From: Candidatus Sulfotelmatobacter sp.
Lineage (GTDB): Bacteria; Acidobacteriota; Terriglobia; Terriglobales; Acidobacteriaceae
Length of the DNA stretch: 63,299 nucleotides
Assembly (NCBI GenBank): GCA_030041415.1
Contig: JASHNX010000107.1
Span: 1 to 63,299, forward strand
Reading direction: 5' to 3'
Below the pieces are notes generated by a model. The model worked only from the letters and a program-made list of their open reading frames with translations, searched no databases and was not told the origin of the DNA. The position numbers were made by a program, and so were the translations under genes. This document shows positions 16,142 through 23,216 of this stretch, piece by piece. How positions within the stretch are numbered: the first letter of the stretch is position 1; each line of letters begins with the position of its first letter.

Positions 16142-16382
16142 ACAAGTGGGCCGGAAGGCGACGAATACCCGCATTTGTTAAATTTCTCAACTCGCCTGTT
16201 ACAAAATCCGGACAGATCGGGGCCTGCACGAGAAAAGCGACCTTCCCGCCGCGACGATGCCTGGGCTGAGGAAAACCGAATTGCAAGCAGTATTTACGCG
16301 GTTGGGGGCTTGTTCGGATTTCGTAACAGACTTTGCCGGCGGCAAAAAAATTGCTGAAATCATGTACTAAAAGTATTGTCCC

Positions 16383-16419: not shown

Positions 16420-17226
16420 ATGCTCCCAGCTGGTAAGAGCCTTCGTGCCCTGCGCGAGAAACTCGGGCTGACCATGCGTGACGTAGAGATGTCGAGTGCG
16501 CGCATGGCCGAGAAGTATCGCAACGAAGAATTCTCGATTCCTCCCAGCCGCTTGTCGGATATCGAGACAAAGAATGTCTTGCCCAGCATCTTTCGCCTGT
16601 ATACGTTGTCGGTGATTTACCGCCGCGACATGCGGGAACTACTGGCCTGGTATGGCGTCGACATGAATAATATGGCAGCCGACCTGGGCATGATCTCGCC
16701 ACCCAAATCACACGTTTCGGAAACGCTGGCAGGAATGTCGGCGGTGCAGATGCCGGTGCGCATGGATCCGGCATTCGATCAGCAACGCACTGCCAATCTC
16801 GGCCGCATGGTGGAGCAGTGGGGCCTGGTGCCGTTATCCTACCTGGCGCAATTCGCGCACAGCGACTTCACCTACGGCTATATAGGCAATCAGGATTTCA
16901 CCATGTACCCCATCCTGCAGCCCGGCAGCTTCATTCAAATCGATGAAGCCAAGAACAAAGTAGTGGAAGGATTATGGCGCTGCGAATACGAGCGGCCGAT
17001 TTATTTCGTTGAGACGCGGGACGGGCATACCTGCTGCTGGTGCAGCATGCGCCGCGACGATCTGGTTCTGCAGCCGCATCCCTTGTCACCCGTTCCGATT
17101 CGGGTTTTGCGCCATCCACAGGAAGCGGAGATCATCGGACAGGTGGTCGGCGTGGCTATGAAGCTGACGGAGTGGCACGCTTTTGGTTCTTCTTCAGGCT
17201 CGAAAGCGCAACCAGCACTGAACTGA
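16420..17226 (+). CDS. XRE-type regulator with degenerate S24/LexA-like C-terminal domain
   Basis: 268 residues. An N-terminal helix-turn-helix of XRE type is at about residues 5-75 (LRALREKLGLTMRDVE to RLSDIETK). The C-terminal part from about 140 resembles the S24/LexA fold: DFTMYPILQPGSFIQID matches the family's S-M-x-P...G-D-x-V-x-V-D pattern, but the nucleophile Ser is replaced by Thr and no catalytic Lys is evident, so it is probably a sensor without protease activity. It has an unusual CCWC cluster preceded by another Cys (WRCEYE), which could bind metal or sense redox state. The ATG at 16420 follows GGAGGGG by seven bases. Its last 71 bases overlap the convergent gene. Confidence 0.8.
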   Translation: MLPAGKSLRALREKLGLTMRDVEMSSARMAEKYRNEEFSIPPSRLSDIETKNVLPSIFRLYTLSVIYRRDMRELLAWYGVDMNNMAADLGMISPPKSHVSETLAGMSAVQMPVRMDPAFDQQRTANLGRMVEQWGLVPLSYLAQFAHSDFTYGYIGNQDFTMYPILQPGSFIQIDEAKNKVVEGLWRCEYERPIYFVETRDGHTCCWCSMRRDDLVLQPHPLSPVPIRVLRHPQEAEIIGQVVGVAMKLTEWHAFGSSSGSKAQPALN

Positions 17227-17575
17227 GGTGACGCGCAGAAGCTCTGTCTTGCGCGGAAGGAAGCAGTACGCCGAATTGCTCTTGCATACTTTCAAGGTAA
17301 GCAGTCTCGCTCTTATCGCTTACCTGACTCGACTCCCGCAGGTCCTCCACTAATTCCGGTATCGGAGTGCGCAACACCGTTGACAGGACTTCGGTGTGAG
17401 CCGTTTTCAATGCTCGCTGGGACGCCTCCTCGCCATGAACCAGCGACAATCCCCAATGCCGGTACCCGCCCTCGCCGGTGCGTAGCGATCCGAGATATGC
17501 CAGCTTTGCCAATAGGCCGGATACCGCAGCCAGCGTGCTTTCCCGAAGATCCTGTAGAGCGGATTTGAGCGTCAT
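17156..17575 (-). CDS. Hypothetical protein, convergent and overlapping
   Basis: 139 residues, no family recognised. Mostly helical (SALQDLRESTLAAVSGLL near the start), with a conserved-looking YRHWGLSLVHGEEASQRALK segment near residue 40 and a helical second half. Its 3' end overlaps the 3' end of the XRE regulator gene by 71 bases on the opposite strand. I keep it as real because of its length, composition and its own gap upstream; it resembles short conserved acidobacterial proteins I have seen, but I cannot name a function. Confidence 0.65.
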   Translation of the reverse strand: MTLKSALQDLRESTLAAVSGLLAKLAYLGSLRTGEGGYRHWGLSLVHGEEASQRALKTAHTEVLSTVLRTPIPELVEDLRESSQVSDKSETAYLESMQEQFGVLLPSAQDRASARHLSSVLVALSSLKKNQKRATPSAS

Positions 17576-17682
17576 TTCTTGTTACGAATTCCGAACAGAT
17601 AACAGTACCAAAGTAATGTTTTCTCCAAGTCCGGCACATGAAAATATCACGCTTCAATTTTGCAAACAAGGAGAAAACAATC

Positions 17683-17805
17683 GTGAAACGTATGCTACTT
17701 GTGGTCGCAGCGGCTGTGATGTTTTTGAGCACTTTGGCGCTCCCAACCGTGGCGAATGCGGATAACGGAACGGGCAACTGCGGCACTTCAGTCTGCAAAC
17801 CTTAA
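17683..17805 (+). CDS. Small secreted peptide precursor (40 residues)
   Basis: A short gene starting at GTG 17683, preceded by AAGGAG nine bases upstream, and ending at TAA 17803-17805. The product has a textbook signal peptide: basic MKRM, a hydrophobic core (LLVVAAAVMFLSTLAL), then a PTVANA cleavage site at about residue 26. The mature part would be DNGTGNCGTSVCKP, 14 residues with two Cys that could form one disulfide. No family recognised. Neighbours are an uncharacterised gene on the minus strand and a seven-helix membrane protein downstream. A signalling, bacteriocin-like or adaptor role would be pure guesswork. Confidence 0.7.
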   Translation: MKRMLLVVAAAVMFLSTLALPTVANADNGTGNCGTSVCKP

Positions 17806-17900
17806 TCCAGACACGTAACAGAGACTTTACGAAAACCGAACAAGATTCGATCTGATTTGATGTCGGAAGCATAGTCGCGGTAAAGTACAGAGCCGCCACT

Positions 17901-18668
17901 ATGCTTCATTCTCATTCATTACTATGGCATTACCTGTGGCTTGCGCCTGACATTTTGCAAGTGGCGCTGGCAGTTCTGCTCTATCGCCGCGGATTTTACA
18001 AAGCCTACCCCGTATTCTTCGCCTACCTCATCTACGAAGCGATTGAGACCTTCACGCTCTACGCTGTGGATGTTCTTCCTTGGACCACCGCAGAATCCTA
18101 TTGGCGGATCTTCTGGGTCACCTTGATCATCGGAGGCCTTGTCAAGTTTGCGGTGATTGGAGAGTTGTTACGCCACTTGACCTATTCGCGGTCCGCCCTC
18201 GCCAAGGCTGGAGACTTAACGTTCGCCTGTGCAGGGGTGGGGCTGACACTGTTGGCTGTGTTGGTTGCAGCCTATACCACCCCGCATAATCCTCACTGGC
18301 TGGTCGCGGGCGCGCTTCTGCTGTTGCAAGCGACCTATGTAGTCCAATGCGGACTTATTCTCTTCGTCTTCTTGTTAGCCGCTTATTTCAGATTGAGTTG
18401 GGATAGAGCTACTTTTGGCATCGCCCTCGGTTTTTCTATCGTCTTCTGCCAGCATCTAGCCAGTCGTGCAGTAGAAGTCTCTTTCGCCTTACCGGAGAAC
18501 GGAATAGTTTTCGATTTGCTCAATATGGCGACTTACCACGTTTGTGTCCTGATCTGGTGTTATTACCTTCTCGTTCCCCGAAAGAAGCCGGCAATCTCTG
18601 CGCAGCCCTTGCCCGAAAACAATCTTGCGGTTTGGAACCGGGAACTGGAGCGTCTACTCCAAAAATGA
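17901..18668 (+). CDS. Seven-helix membrane protein, function unknown
   Basis: 255 residues with about seven transmembrane segments (approximately 7-27, 35-55, 70-90, 103-125, 130-158, 165-187, 200-224) and a short polar C-terminal tail (PRKKPAISAQPLPEN). No catalytic motif is visible. The stop overlaps the next gene's start by four bases (ATGA), so the two are very probably co-translated. The type is frequent in acidobacterial genomes as far as I recall, without a function. Confidence 0.8.
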   Translation: MLHSHSLLWHYLWLAPDILQVALAVLLYRRGFYKAYPVFFAYLIYEAIETFTLYAVDVLPWTTAESYWRIFWVTLIIGGLVKFAVIGELLRHLTYSRSALAKAGDLTFACAGVGLTLLAVLVAAYTTPHNPHWLVAGALLLLQATYVVQCGLILFVFLLAAYFRLSWDRATFGIALGFSIVFCQHLASRAVEVSFALPENGIVFDLLNMATYHVCVLIWCYYLLVPRKKPAISAQPLPENNLAVWNRELERLLQK

Positions 18669-19204
18669 ATCTAGCCATCTTTATCGTCATCATCGCGGCT
18701 CTGACGTTGAGCGCAATTTTGCTGCTTTCGGTCAAGCAGACCCTCCAGAACAGACAAAGCGTAAACCTAACCGGATCGATTCATCCGATTGACGTTGAAG
18801 CATTTCGGAATCTCACCAACCCTGCCGAGGATGAATACTTGCGGCGCTGCCTCACACCGGCCCAGTTCCGAAGAGTGCGCCGTGAGCGATTGCTCGCCTT
18901 GGTTGCTTATGTTCATCTGGTCGCCGAGAATGCAGGCGTGCTCGTGGCTGTAGGCGAGTCGGCGCTTGCCGGCGGCGATGCGAGATTGGCTGATCCGGCT
19001 CGGGCTTTGGTGAATGACGCTCTGCTGCTGCGCCGCAATGCAACCATGGCTATGGCGCGAATCTATATCGCATTGGCCTGGCCCAATTCGGGGTTCGCGG
19101 CTGCACGGGTGGCCGACCGTTACGAGCAGCTAAGCGGCACGGCCATGCTGCTCGGCAGGTTGCAGAATCCCGCTGTTCCGGTTCGGCTCTCCGCAATGAG
19201 ATAA
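18665..19204 (+). CDS. Membrane-anchored hypothetical protein
   Basis: 179 residues, coupled to the preceding seven-helix protein by an ATGA overlap. An N-terminal hydrophobic helix (MNLAIFIVIIAALTLS, about 2-22) anchors it. The rest is a helical domain with RRCLTPAQFRRVRRERLLAL near residues 58-77. No family recognised. The ATG overlap with the upstream stop decided the start; a longer in-frame extension from 18542 lies inside the upstream gene. Confidence 0.75.
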   Translation: MNLAIFIVIIAALTLSAILLLSVKQTLQNRQSVNLTGSIHPIDVEAFRNLTNPAEDEYLRRCLTPAQFRRVRRERLLALVAYVHLVAENAGVLVAVGESALAGGDARLADPARALVNDALLLRRNATMAMARIYIALAWPNSGFAAARVADRYEQLSGTAMLLGRLQNPAVPVRLSAMR

Positions 19205-19442: not shown

Positions 19443-22400
19443 ATGATTTTCGGATTAACCATCCGCCACCACAAAGTTCTTTCCGTCTCGTTGTTCGTTG
19501 TCCTTGCCTCGGCTATCGTTTTCGGTCAGGGCGGCGCATCTACCGGCGATCTGCATGTCACCGTCAAGGACCCCAAAGGCAACCTTGTGGCGAATGCGAC
19601 CGTTGTCGCCAGCGATGTCGCCAAGGGCGTGGTGCGCACTGCAACTGGCGATAACCAGGGAGGTTACAGCGTCCGCCTGCTCCCTCCAGGAACCTACACG
19701 GTGACGGCGCAGGCTCAGGGTTTCGATACGGCTCAAGTTAAGGACGTCGGCATCACGGTTGGAGGACTGGTGGAACTTTCCGTCGCTCTGGCGCTCTCTA
19801 CAGGTAAGGTGACCGTGGAGGTGACCTCGCAAGCGGATTTGATCGAGACCTCGCGCACCTCAACGACGGACACAATCGGCGAACGGCGAATCGACAATCT
19901 GCCTATCAATGGCCGCAACTACATCAACTTTACCCTGACCGATTCGCAGGTAAATCGCGACAACGCACCCGAAACGGGAGCCGCGCCCACGTCCGGCCTG
20001 AACATGAGCGGCCAGCGCGCACGTTCGAACCTGGTGAACGTCGATGGCGCCGACGACACCGACAACGGCGTAAACGGAGTTCGCTCCACGGTTTCGCAGG
20101 AAGACGTGCAGGAATTTCAAATCATCACCAACAATTACGCGCCGGAATATGGCCGCGCGGCAGGAGGCGTGGTCAATATCATCACGCGTTCCGGGTCGAA
20201 CGATTTTCATGGCGATGTGTTCGGCTTTTTGCGCAATCGCGATTTCCAGGCGGTGAATCCATTCAGCACGGTTCCGAATCCCGCGTATACGCGTGTGCAG
20301 GCTGGAGCAGCCTTCGGTGGACCGATCAAGAAAGACAAGACATATTATTTCTTTTCTTATGAAGTCACACGGCGGCACGAGACTGGTTTTTCCGATATTG
20401 GCGCGGATAATTTCGGACTCGTTCCCTTTAATACGGCCCAGGTCGGCCTCCCATTCGGCACGCTGCAACTCACTCCCGACCAAGTGAGTTTTCTAACGGA
20501 TCCAGCGACTCTGGCCGCGGAAGCAAACCCCCTGTTCTTGGCCGGAGTTGAGAAATACACCATCCTGGCGGGCGCATCGTCCGGCCAGGCCATTCAGGGG
20601 ACTTGGCCCACTGCCTTGGTGCAGGCTTTGAGCGGAGGTCTGTTATCCACCTGGACAGGATTTCCCACGAGTTGCACTCCTCCCGGCCCGTGCGCGCCTG
20701 TTCCCACGTCGTATCAGACTCTTGGTGCGCAAGTGGGAAATTTCCCCGTGTTTGAGGGAACCAGTCTCTACTCGTTTCGTATCGATCACAACATCAACGT
20801 GAACAATCGCTTGATGCTGCGGGTCAATGTGAGCCCCAGCACGATCACCGGAATCGAAGTCAGCGGGCAGGATCAACCTGTCGGGCAGAACGCATATTCG
20901 CGCACCTCCGAACAGACCTATCGCGACGTGGCCGGCGTGGCTCAGGATACGTGGACGATCGGCAGCAGCAAGGTCAACGAATTCCGTTTTCAATATGCCC
21001 GCCGCGGCTTGTCTTACTTCTACAACACGGCGATACCGGGAGGGTCCGACCCAGCCGTGAACATTCCGGGGTACGCTTATTTCGGACGCGAGCCTTATTC
21101 CTACATTCAGCGAACTGAGCAGCGCTACCAGTTCACCGATAATTTCTCGTGGACGATCGGTAGGCACAACACGAAATTTGGCGCGGACTTCAACTACATT
21201 GCCACCGATGCCACGTTCACCGTGAATTATGGCGGCGTATACGATTTCGGCGCGCAAACATCGGCTGATCTCGGGTTCACCTCTCCGGTGCCCAATGATC
21301 CATTTCCAAGCCTTTCGCCCGTGCAAGCCTACGGCGCAGGTCTGCCGGAAGATTTCATTCAGGGCATCGGGAACCCGCACGATTCATTCCCCAACAAGCC
21401 GCTGGGGGTTTTCTGGCAAGATTCGTGGCGGGCTCGTCCGAATCTCACTTTGAACTACGGCTTGCGCTACGACATCGAGTTTCCGCCGCAATTCAAGCCG
21501 GTCACCCCTCTGGCTCAAGCGGGATACAACTTCCTTGGATTACAGAAGGGTATCCAGACCTATACTCACGGCGTTCAGCCACGCGTCGGTCTTGCGTGGG
21601 ATCCCAAAGGTGACGGCAAAACTGTCGTGCGCTCCTCGTACGGAATCTTTTTTGACCATCCGCTGCTCGGCCTGTATTTCCTCGGTGACGCCTCCGATGG
21701 CTCGACCAGCGGCCAACTCGTATTCGCAGGAACTGGTGGCTGTACGACCGCAGGGCAGCCAGGTAACCTCAACGCGATTCCTATCTTTCAAGGATTGCCG
21801 ATCAATGAAGCGGGATCGCCTTGCGCAGCCTCTGCAAGCGCCGCAACTCTGGCCGCTCTCGGTTATGAGCCCAATCTGCAGCAGTTCAACTCATTCCAGG
21901 CCAATTCCGTATTCCTCAATCAGAGTTACCTCAATCCCGCGACCTTCCTGCCGCTCGCGTTTCAACCGTTCGGTTATCCGCAGGCCAAGAATTTCGTCTA
22001 CGCGTATGCGCAGCAGGGGAACTTCAGCGTGGAGCGGGATCTCGGCGGCGGCTACGCCCTCGACCTGGCCTACAACTTCAATGGCGGGCGCCATCTGAAC
22101 CGGCCCATCAATTCCAATGCGATTCGCGGCGATCTGATGATCGACAACCTGCTGGTTGCGCAAGCGGCCGCCGTGGCAGCGGGAATCGGGCCGACGAATC
22201 CAAATTATCCGACTAGTCCATTTACCGTTGGAACATCTACTGCGTTTGCGCCTTGCGGCGTGCTTCCAAATGGTAAGGCTTATGTGCCGTCATCCCTGAT
22301 GGGTTTCTTCCGTCCCAGCGGCTTGAATCCTTCGATTGCAGTTGCGCTTGAGCAAAGCGGCGGAGCCGGCTGTGTAACCATCGCGCAAGGCATGCTGCAA

Positions 22401-23216
22401 GGTCTGGCGAGCCAGGGCTTCAACACTGCCTGCAATCCGGCGACTCTCGCGGGCTGCATCCCGTTCAGCGACATGGATGCCAACTACTCGACCGGCACGT
22501 CGAACTACAACGGATTCAGCGCCAACCTGCGCAAACGCTTCAATCGCAACTTCGAATTTCTAGCTTCATACACCTGGTCGCACGCCATCGACGACTCGAC
22601 CGACCTAGAGGCGACGCTCACACCGCAAGACAGCTATTACCCGAACCGCGATCGTTCGACCTCTTTGTTCGATCAGCGGCACCGGTTCGTCTTCAGCGGC
22701 GTTTACCAGGTTGGCAAGGTGAGCAGCGGCTTTAGCAGAAAGGTTTTCAGCGATTGGACATTCGCCCCGCTCATCGAGTTCGGTTCCGGACGGCCTTTCA
22801 ATATCATTACCGGCAATGACGACAATCTGCAGTTGTCATCGCTCACCGGCCGTCCCAATACAGTTGTAAATCCCGCGTGCACCGCGCTGGGCTATCCGGC
22901 CGTTCCTTCGAAGTTTTCTCCGACTGGGGTTTTTCAGGAACCCTGTCCTGCCGACTTCAACGGCACCCTATCGTCGCTCGATGGGACCCTCGGCCGCAAC
23001 GCCGGCGTGCAACCCTGGACCGTGTTCGACGATTTTCGGATCGCCAAACGCATTTACTTCACCGAACGTTACAATCTTGAATTGATCGCCGACATGTTCA
23101 ACATCGCGAATCGCTACAACGTATCCGCGGTGAGCCCGCTGTTCACGAATGCAGGTCAGGCCACGGCAGCCTACGATCCGCGGCAGTTCCAGTTCGCGAT
23201 GAAGTTCTATTGGTAG
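19443..23216 (+). CDS. Oar-type TonB-dependent outer-membrane protein
   Basis: 1257 residues. A signal peptide ends near residue 29 (VFGQ), followed by a carboxypeptidase-regulatory-like Ig fold (about 35-120: LHVTVKDPKGNLVANATVV to GTYTVTAQAQGF), a plug domain (about 125-260, with LPINGRNYINFTL and EYGRAAGGVVNIITRSGSN) and a long beta-barrel ending in FAMKFYW with an aromatic C-terminus. This is the architecture of Oar-like TonB-dependent transporters abundant in Terriglobia; the substrate is unknown, often assumed to be oligosaccharides. A GGGAG site precedes the ATG. There is no SusD partner or TonB gene nearby. Confidence 0.93.
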   Translation: MIFGLTIRHHKVLSVSLFVVLASAIVFGQGGASTGDLHVTVKDPKGNLVANATVVASDVAKGVVRTATGDNQGGYSVRLLPPGTYTVTAQAQGFDTAQVKDVGITVGGLVELSVALALSTGKVTVEVTSQADLIETSRTSTTDTIGERRIDNLPINGRNYINFTLTDSQVNRDNAPETGAAPTSGLNMSGQRARSNLVNVDGADDTDNGVNGVRSTVSQEDVQEFQIITNNYAPEYGRAAGGVVNIITRSGSNDFHGDVFGFLRNRDFQAVNPFSTVPNPAYTRVQAGAAFGGPIKKDKTYYFFSYEVTRRHETGFSDIGADNFGLVPFNTAQVGLPFGTLQLTPDQVSFLTDPATLAAEANPLFLAGVEKYTILAGASSGQAIQGTWPTALVQALSGGLLSTWTGFPTSCTPPGPCAPVPTSYQTLGAQVGNFPVFEGTSLYSFRIDHNINVNNRLMLRVNVSPSTITGIEVSGQDQPVGQNAYSRTSEQTYRDVAGVAQDTWTIGSSKVNEFRFQYARRGLSYFYNTAIPGGSDPAVNIPGYAYFGREPYSYIQRTEQRYQFTDNFSWTIGRHNTKFGADFNYIATDATFTVNYGGVYDFGAQTSADLGFTSPVPNDPFPSLSPVQAYGAGLPEDFIQGIGNPHDSFPNKPLGVFWQDSWRARPNLTLNYGLRYDIEFPPQFKPVTPLAQAGYNFLGLQKGIQTYTHGVQPRVGLAWDPKGDGKTVVRSSYGIFFDHPLLGLYFLGDASDGSTSGQLVFAGTGGCTTAGQPGNLNAIPIFQGLPINEAGSPCAASASAATLAALGYEPNLQQFNSFQANSVFLNQSYLNPATFLPLAFQPFGYPQAKNFVYAYAQQGNFSVERDLGGGYALDLAYNFNGGRHLNRPINSNAIRGDLMIDNLLVAQAAAVAAGIGPTNPNYPTSPFTVGTSTAFAPCGVLPNGKAYVPSSLMGFFRPSGLNPSIAVALEQSGGAGCVTIAQGMLQGLASQGFNTACNPATLAGCIPFSDMDANYSTGTSNYNGFSANLRKRFNRNFEFLASYTWSHAIDDSTDLEATLTPQDSYYPNRDRSTSLFDQRHRFVFSGVYQVGKVSSGFSRKVFSDWTFAPLIEFGSGRPFNIITGNDDNLQLSSLTGRPNTVVNPACTALGYPAVPSKFSPTGVFQEPCPADFNGTLSSLDGTLGRNAGVQPWTVFDDFRIAKRIYFTERYNLELIADMFNIANRYNVSAVSPLFTNAGQATAAYDPRQFQFAMKFYW

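Follow-up and report, generated by a model that had tools for sequence, protein, structure and literature searches.

What does a 40-codon open reading frame beside a membrane protein gene do in an acidobacterial genome, if it is a gene at all? The question is raised by the window (the whole stretch of 63,299 nucleotides of Candidatus Sulfotelmatobacter sp. that was analysed), in which the first-pass annotation had described a secreted micropeptide with a two-cysteine mature part, located in a membrane-protein locus, and had guessed at a signalling or antimicrobial role. We refer to the open reading frame (17683..17805, forward strand) as pep.

The micropeptide gene and its relatives

The gene has a GTG start and a TAA stop. 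As had been claimed, the GTG is present at 17683 and the AAGGAG ribosome-binding site lies nine bases 5' of it (17668..17673, forward strand); the latter is kept in an alignment of 20 loci. An in-frame ATG at 17638, 45 bases 5' of the GTG, was considered as the start and rejected, because the spacing between ATG and GTG shifts by single bases among relatives and because in the relative L015 a TAA stands directly 3' of that ATG. Judged from the sequence and the alignment, the first 26 residues form a signal peptide (17683..17760, forward strand) with an A-N-A end. Cleavage at this AxA-type site, which reads ANA followed by D, would leave the predicted mature peptide of 14 residues, DNGTGNCGTSVCKP (17761..17802, forward strand), and TAA follows it; the signal peptide, the site and the length of the mature part can thus be read in the sequence as first described.

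The first homologue search found pep in 20 of 41 genomes, namely in 20 of the 25 of the genus, including that of the window, and in none of the 16 outside it. With a profile of 20 rows, an intact homologue was detected in at least 39 of the 45 genomes representing the genus in the family set, which is far beyond chance, and it is close to certain that pep is a genuine gene. Six genus genomes had no match: three of these have contigs that end inside the XRE gene, inside div (two neighbouring genes described below) or just 5' of pep, and the other three have no XRE match whatever. The same profile found homologues in at least 14 genomes of other genera among 398 family genomes. Thirteen of these matches were examined, with G482 left out, and 12 proved to be the same gene at the same place; L084 was dropped as a homologue, its match being the leader of a longer protein. 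A search of 299 genomes of the class gave a match at E ≤ 0.01 in at least 12 genomes, of which four are genus members, one (G287) is a relative and seven are partial matches (E 0.002-0.01). These genome searches scored up to 18 or up to 24 candidates per genome, and the counts are lower bounds.

The sequence of the peptide is under purifying selection. Across the 39 genus orthologues, pN/pS is 0.38 and dN/dS is 0.19, and comparison with the nearest relative gives 22.3 synonymous changes at 30 sites and 4.7 non-synonymous ones at 87. The first-pass annotation had named a lack of homologues, or frameshifts and stop codons in close relatives, as grounds for giving up the gene; homologues were found, and all 39 orthologues keep the frame without an internal stop or frameshift. 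Each of them also has A-D where cleavage is predicted, two or more cysteines and a C-[KR]-P end (CKP in 37 and CRP in two). Outside the genus, the cross-genus alignment gives as consensus a signal peptide followed by A-D-G-N-P-x-P-x-C-x(n)-C and a variable tail. The D-G-x-P at the start of the mature part, where the window reads D-N-G-T, is common to more genera than the two cysteines are, and some relatives (L142, L149, L156, L160 and L184) have no cysteine at all. Thus the two-cysteine mature part holds for the window and for all 39 genus orthologues, but not as the defining feature of the family.

The window peptide had no match at cut-off in Pfam, NCBIfam, PADLOC or PHROGs, and two NCBIfam matches below the cut-off (E 0.18 and 0.31) span the signal region only. 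When 31 relatives of the peptide were compared with Pfam, the matches were weak: LPAM_1 in two (best E 0.0097), InaF-motif in one (E 0.0012) and FOLN in one (E 0.033).

Gene order, joint loss and candidate regulatory sites

Four constant neighbours accompany pep. Upstream are the gene for an XRE-type HTH protein (16420..17226, forward strand) and, overlapping its end, the divergent gene div (17156..17575, reverse strand; 139 aa). Downstream are the partner gene mem (17901..18668, forward strand; 255 aa), which encodes a seven-transmembrane (7TM) protein as judged from its model, its homologues and the pairing described below, and a third gene (18665..19204, forward strand; 179 aa), whose ATG overlaps the mem stop codon (ATGA). 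The order XRE - div - pep - 7TM - third is fixed in all 26 genus loci compared. The 7TM gene is present in all 12 loci compared from other genera; XRE, div and the third gene are present in 11 each, and the misses sit at contig ends (XRE and div in L076, the third gene in L075). In these 12 loci, the identity of the 7TM protein drops to 26-38% although the neighbours are kept.

The products of the neighbours tell little about function. HTH families are matched below the cut-off in the XRE-type protein of the window, and Pfam at E ≤ 0.01 gave HTH families only, with no TPR match, for the XRE neighbour, which has no sequence match in the PDB. The div product has no Pfam or NCBIfam match at cut-off. 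For the third protein of the window, which has no Pfam match, the model (pLDDT 76) consists of an N-terminal helix, likely a membrane anchor, and a generic helical bundle whose best VIA match is a designed protein (Z 11.8); therefore, no function follows from it. None of the five constant genes encodes a histidine kinase.

Further loci were retrieved via the XRE neighbour from Candidatus Sulfotelmatobacter and other Terriglobia/Acidobacteria MAGs, and all five genes are present in 60 of these 80 named loci. Both pep and the 7TM gene could be assessed in 71, and both are present in 62. Both are lost or broken in six (L148, L154, L155, L157, L162 and L174), five of which, all but L148, retain the third gene. 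The 7TM gene occurs without an intact pep in two loci (the open reading frame is gone in L172 and the start codon is lost in L175), and in one (L164) there is a peptide-like open reading frame and no 7TM gene was detected. The loci left out of the 71 are those that end before the place (L106, L120, L151, L163 and L168) or inside pep (L152), and three in which the XRE gene has other surroundings (L166, L177 and L179). None of the usual neighbours of the XRE gene was found in L166, and L177 and L179 have a 7TM gene elsewhere in the locus with its own secreted open reading frame upstream.

Mean distances among the five proteins are highest for the 7TM protein (0.61), with 0.55 for the peptide. 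When the three other neighbours were controlled for, the partial correlation between peptide and 7TM distances was 0.23 (reached in 1 of 2000 permutations). That between peptide and XRE distances was as high (0.27, 0 of 2000), and such a mirror-tree comparison of sequences is thus only suggestive of a tie between the peptide and the 7TM protein.

The locus contains three candidate regulator sites with the pattern TTACGAAWWCCGAAC: TTACGAATTCCGAAC between div and pep (17582..17596, forward strand), TTACGAAAACCGAAC before the 7TM gene (17827..17841, forward strand) and TTACGAAATCCGAAC before the XRE gene (16312..16326, reverse strand). All three appear in the genome scan and the locus counts, and the first two also in the alignment. 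The pattern occurs 14 times in its own genome with up to one mismatch, versus twice for the reversed pattern, and three of the six exact copies are those before XRE, between div and pep, and before the 7TM gene. In the genus-like loci L105-L140, the core of TTACGAAWWCCGAAC is found near div in 26 of 35 loci, 5' of XRE in 32 of 36 and before the gene for the 7TM protein in 26 of 34, versus 6 of 180 random windows of 220 nt and 2 of 324 of 45 nt. The corresponding counts in the other loci are 2 of 40, 19 of 44 and 0 of 33, with 6 of 220 and 1 of 396 in random windows of the two sizes. We infer from these sequence counts that the XRE protein may bind TTACGAAWWCCGAAC and, in the genus, control the pep-7TM pair; the pattern is perhaps the operator of XRE or that of a wider regulon.

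Another conserved element, TATCACG (17645..17651, forward strand), was read from locus alignments and could be an operator, a 5' UTR element or the -10 region of div. A wider consensus, A[TC]CAC, lies 36-45 nt 5' of the pep start codon in 49 of 51 loci, and remnants of it remain in loci without pep. Read on the minus strand, the element resembles an extended -10 of div and may not belong to pep. A possible hairpin of this element with the start codon region (TCACGGT with ACCGTGA) was also considered. When L049 and L076, from which the element is absent, are dropped from the 51 loci, 257 of 390 cells are paired in 39 distinct loci, and 1.5% of shuffles are as good, a figure in which relatedness is uncontrolled. 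The window itself has five pairs only, and in loci with an ATG start the upstream half is conserved even though it pairs poorly; the sequence case for a hairpin at pep is weak. At the gathering score, Rfam gave nothing in the window. Before the 7TM gene, a candidate promoter (TTGATG - 18 - TAAAGT; 17857..17886, forward strand) was read from the alignment, and many relatives have TTGCCG...TATAGT there; a consensus promoter scan reported none in this stretch.

A gene beside the locus encodes a TonB-type outer-membrane protein with a carboxypeptidase-regulatory domain (19443-23216), and a further neighbour is a gene that we take to be isoaspartyl-peptidase-like. In the stretches compared, both were matched in genus loci only, and the TonB-type protein is therefore probably unrelated to the pep locus.

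The membrane protein and its pairing with secreted peptides

The AlphaFold model of the 7TM protein, made from 56 rows, has seven membrane helices and a C-terminal helix (mean pLDDT 88.3). Averaged over the 56 proteins, lysine and arginine number 3.3, 1.1, 1.9 and 1.7 in the inside loops and tail, and 0.2, 0.4, 0.5 and 0.1 outside; since these residues are enriched inside and sparse outside, the N-terminus is predicted to be outside and the C-terminus inside. The predicted model and the positive-inside counts thus show the arrangement of GPCRs, with seven helices, an external N-terminus and an internal C-terminus. Conservation is lowest in the three outer loops (0.45, 0.43 and 0.40), with one inner loop close to them (0.46), and highest in the six outer N-terminal residues (0.78).

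Foldseek of the model against the PDB placed GPCR and rhodopsin bundles on top, none of them at E ≤ 0.001 (best 0.15). With VIA-align 2, the best 50 matches are all GPCR-type bundles or designs after them (rmsd 4.1-5.1), at Z from 14.5 to 11.5, where values under about 13 for helical bundles may reflect the common arrangement alone. These comparisons of a predicted model support a receptor-like shape, from which common descent with GPCRs does not follow. The 7TM protein of the window matches no Pfam family at cut-off, and the 56 members have weak, scattered matches. None of the 56 matches a GPCR family, 7TMR-DISM or HisKA_7TM at E ≤ 0.05, nor was any kinase, cyclase or other effector domain matched by Pfam. 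Against PDB sequences there was one doubtful match, to PsbY (E 5.7e-5, 0 stretches passing).

Homologues of the 7TM protein are present in at least 226 of the 399 genomes sampled from the class, with at least six in some genomes. In a phylum sample of 396 genomes, at least 43 have a match, of which 42 belong to the family of the window and one lies elsewhere in the phylum. This search scored up to six candidates per genome, and the counts are lower bounds. From the class matches ranked by score, 80 further homologues were picked downward with known loci omitted; they are mostly higher-scoring ones and not a random sample. Among them, L237 coincides with L170 of the named set, and the stretches of L229 and L231, two adjacent 7TM genes, overlap. 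We scanned the 700 nt upstream of each for an open reading frame of 25-130 codons with a ribosome-binding site, a positive N-terminus and a hydrophobic core, counted as two-cysteine when at least two cysteines follow residue 18.

A small secreted open reading frame lies directly 5' of the 7TM gene in 57 of these 80 Terriglobia loci, compared with 7 of 80 on the reverse strand; for two-cysteine frames the counts are 47 and 1. The same scan 5' of XRE gave 5 of 78, none with two cysteines, and in other windows 17 of 288, one with two cysteines. Relaxed criteria revealed a peptide frame at six more of the 23 negatives, which leaves 17 of the 80 without a detected peptide. Two of these (L275 and L286) are near a contig end, and nine apparently form one subgroup, of a type also present in the genome of the window. 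Five of the nine (L215, L223, L226, L228 and L230) have an upstream open reading frame that we presume to be CBS-domain-like. The paralogue in the window's own genome (L086, G000:C246:10984-11640) likewise has a CBS-like frame 5' of it, and no peptide gene was seen there. An earlier scan with slightly looser criteria of L193-L214, which are 22 of 30 class loci, found a peptide frame at 15, with L202 and L204 not judgeable. Of 20 loci scanned across the class, nine have a homologue of the third gene 3' of the 7TM gene, and a peptide frame is present at all nine. At most positive loci, the gap between the nearest peptide frame and the 7TM gene is 54 to about 230 nt. It is very likely that pep is functionally tied to the 7TM protein.

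Precursors with repeats and genes in tandem occur at these loci. In L156, a precursor of 145 codons (2325-2762) upstream of the 7TM gene contains eight DGNPSSK[YH]P units, and L152 has repeats in its precursor before the contig ends. Internal repeats were found in 4 of the 80 further loci, and tandem peptide genes, two to four before one 7TM gene, in 11 (L251, L252, L256, L262, L267, L270, L272, L273, L277, L280 and L282). The C-termini of tandem genes are alike and the leaders are mostly more variable. For example, IVPIPVCPPDDPNACGM is common to the four tandem genes of L256 and SAMPIPVCAPDDPNACGLGR to the three of L273, with leaders that differ at some positions; the three copies of L282 are identical end to end.

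Possible roles of the peptide

We consider the most likely explanation, with a probability of about one half, to be that the pep product is the ligand of the neighbouring 7TM protein in a peptide-signalling system. The product would be a Sec-exported precursor, which signal peptidase I would cut after A-N-A to give a 14-residue peptide that ends in KP and has a C-x(4)-C pair, which probably forms a disulfide. This peptide would serve as the dedicated extracytoplasmic ligand of the downstream 7TM receptor, and the signal would be passed inside through the membrane-anchored helical product of the third gene and possibly the XRE regulator. The two would form an autocrine or pheromone-like pair. 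Between the roles guessed at first, signalling is favoured because of the 7TM partner, the joint loss, the multi-copy precursors and the tandem peptide genes, and these features, together with purifying selection, produce the resemblance to peptide-pheromone systems; an immunity pair is a less probable rival. Several observations count against a ligand. A peptide of 14 residues, unaided, may stay in the periplasm of a diderm cell, no peptide was detected with some 7TM homologues, and pep has decayed in two loci that keep the 7TM gene. Furthermore, Pfam gave no effector domain for the 7TM proteins that would point to a route of the signal.

Among the other explanations, we regard it as unlikely, yet the least so, that the peptide remains attached to the 7TM protein as a periplasmic subunit or cofactor, with a structural or assembly role. 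The frequent pairing and the joint loss would be expected of a subunit too, as would the single short conserved mature part within the genus, but tandem genes with like mature ends and the eight-fold repeats in one precursor suggest a released unit. The mature length also varies widely, and some lineages have no cysteines, which does not fit a structural part well.

An alternative possibility, which we consider rather improbable, could be a bacteriocin-like peptide that inhibits competitors, with the 7TM protein as the immunity of the producer. A small secreted cysteine peptide beside a multi-span membrane protein that evolves fast, as its mean distance indicates, is what such a pair would look like; the two would be lost jointly, and the peptide-less 7TM genes could be orphan immunity genes. 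However, the peptide is under purifying selection, the multi-copy precursors with short units rich in proline and glycine are pheromone-like, and neither Pfam nor PADLOC has a match for the window peptide. Immunity proteins usually need less than seven helices with a C-terminal helix, and the 7TM protein exceeds this.

We find it more improbable still that the 7TM protein acts on the peptide as AgrB does on AgrD, by processing or exporting it, the true receptor being elsewhere. The AgrD-AgrB and AgrD-AgrC systems of Staphylococcus likewise combine a small precursor peptide with multi-span membrane proteins, pep lies directly 5' of the gene for an integral membrane protein, and the AgrB profile of Pfam matches two of the 56 members weakly (best E 0.0038; the window protein is not among them). 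The other 54 have no AgrB match at E ≤ 0.05, though, and AgrB is a cysteine protease with a catalytic cysteine and histidine, whereas neither residue appears among the columns of the 7TM alignment that are invariant or almost so. AgrD is not known to have a cleavable Sec signal of the pep kind, and this signal already explains the export and the first cut of the pep product. Unlike AgrD-AgrC, the locus has no histidine kinase among its constant genes.

Finally, a regulatory leader, in which pep would control the downstream 7TM gene by arrest or attenuation, is very improbable: a short frame directly 5' of that gene, a K-P-stop end (a terminal proline slows translation termination) and an element that in many loci could base-pair with the start codon would suit it, but in the alignment a promoter-like stretch precedes the 7TM gene itself (none in the consensus scan), a conserved site lies between the genes, the gap between the two varies, the end of the peptide is inconstant across genera, and conservation within the genus extends to the amino-acid sequence, the A-D site included.

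The ligand explanation can be compared with known systems. Seven-helix membrane proteins occur in bacteria as 7TMR-DISM proteins, which are thought to be receptors; unlike these and HisKA_7TM, the 56 members here have no such profile match and no fused effector domain matched. Yeast alpha-factor is a secreted peptide from a precursor with repeated units, and its 7TM partner Ste2 has its N-terminus outside, as predicted here. Any likeness is in fold only, with no sequence relation shown, and to our knowledge no G protein is to be expected in bacteria. Among the RRNPPA pairs of Firmicutes (Rap-Phr, PlcR-PapR, NprR-NprX and AimR-AimP), as described in PMC9765709, a short open reading frame with a Sec signal adjoins the receptor gene, the mature peptide is repeated in some propeptides and some receptors have several propeptide genes, features that are shared here with the 7TM protein as the presumed receptor. 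The RRNPPA receptors are cytoplasmic TPR proteins. Here, by contrast, the partner that recurs is a membrane protein with seven helices, the phylum is diderm, and the XRE neighbour has no TPR match. The pep family has the sequence features of an RRNPPA propeptide, that is, a Sec signal and a C-terminal mature peptide that is sometimes repeated.

Much is established about peptide signalling in Gram-positive bacteria; for Acidobacteriota, we know of no adjacent peptide-7TM pair that has been described. A literature search of titles and the starts of abstracts, mostly from non-subscription sources, gave no such pair for this phylum among the matches listed. The recurrence of the pep-7TM pairing across the class suggests a bacterial peptide-signalling system that has so far not been described. 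More tentatively, Terriglobia might have a family of 7TM receptors shaped like GPCRs, frequently several to a genome, many of them with a linked secreted peptide ligand made from single, tandem or multi-repeat precursors in the manner of alpha-factor; DNGTGNCGTSVCKP would be one such ligand and the receptors without a peptide would be eavesdroppers. If the two are ligand and receptor, they would provide a genetically tractable bacterial peptide-7TM system, explain many micro-ORFs of widespread soil bacteria and bear on the origin of peptide-7TM signalling. Even with an immunity or subunit role, one frame of 40 residues has led to a class-wide family with a recurrent partner.

The secreted open reading frames 5' of the 7TM homologues at L287, L291 and L292 contain no cysteine and have a G-x-DPEP motif in common; these peptides probably form a separate subfamily.
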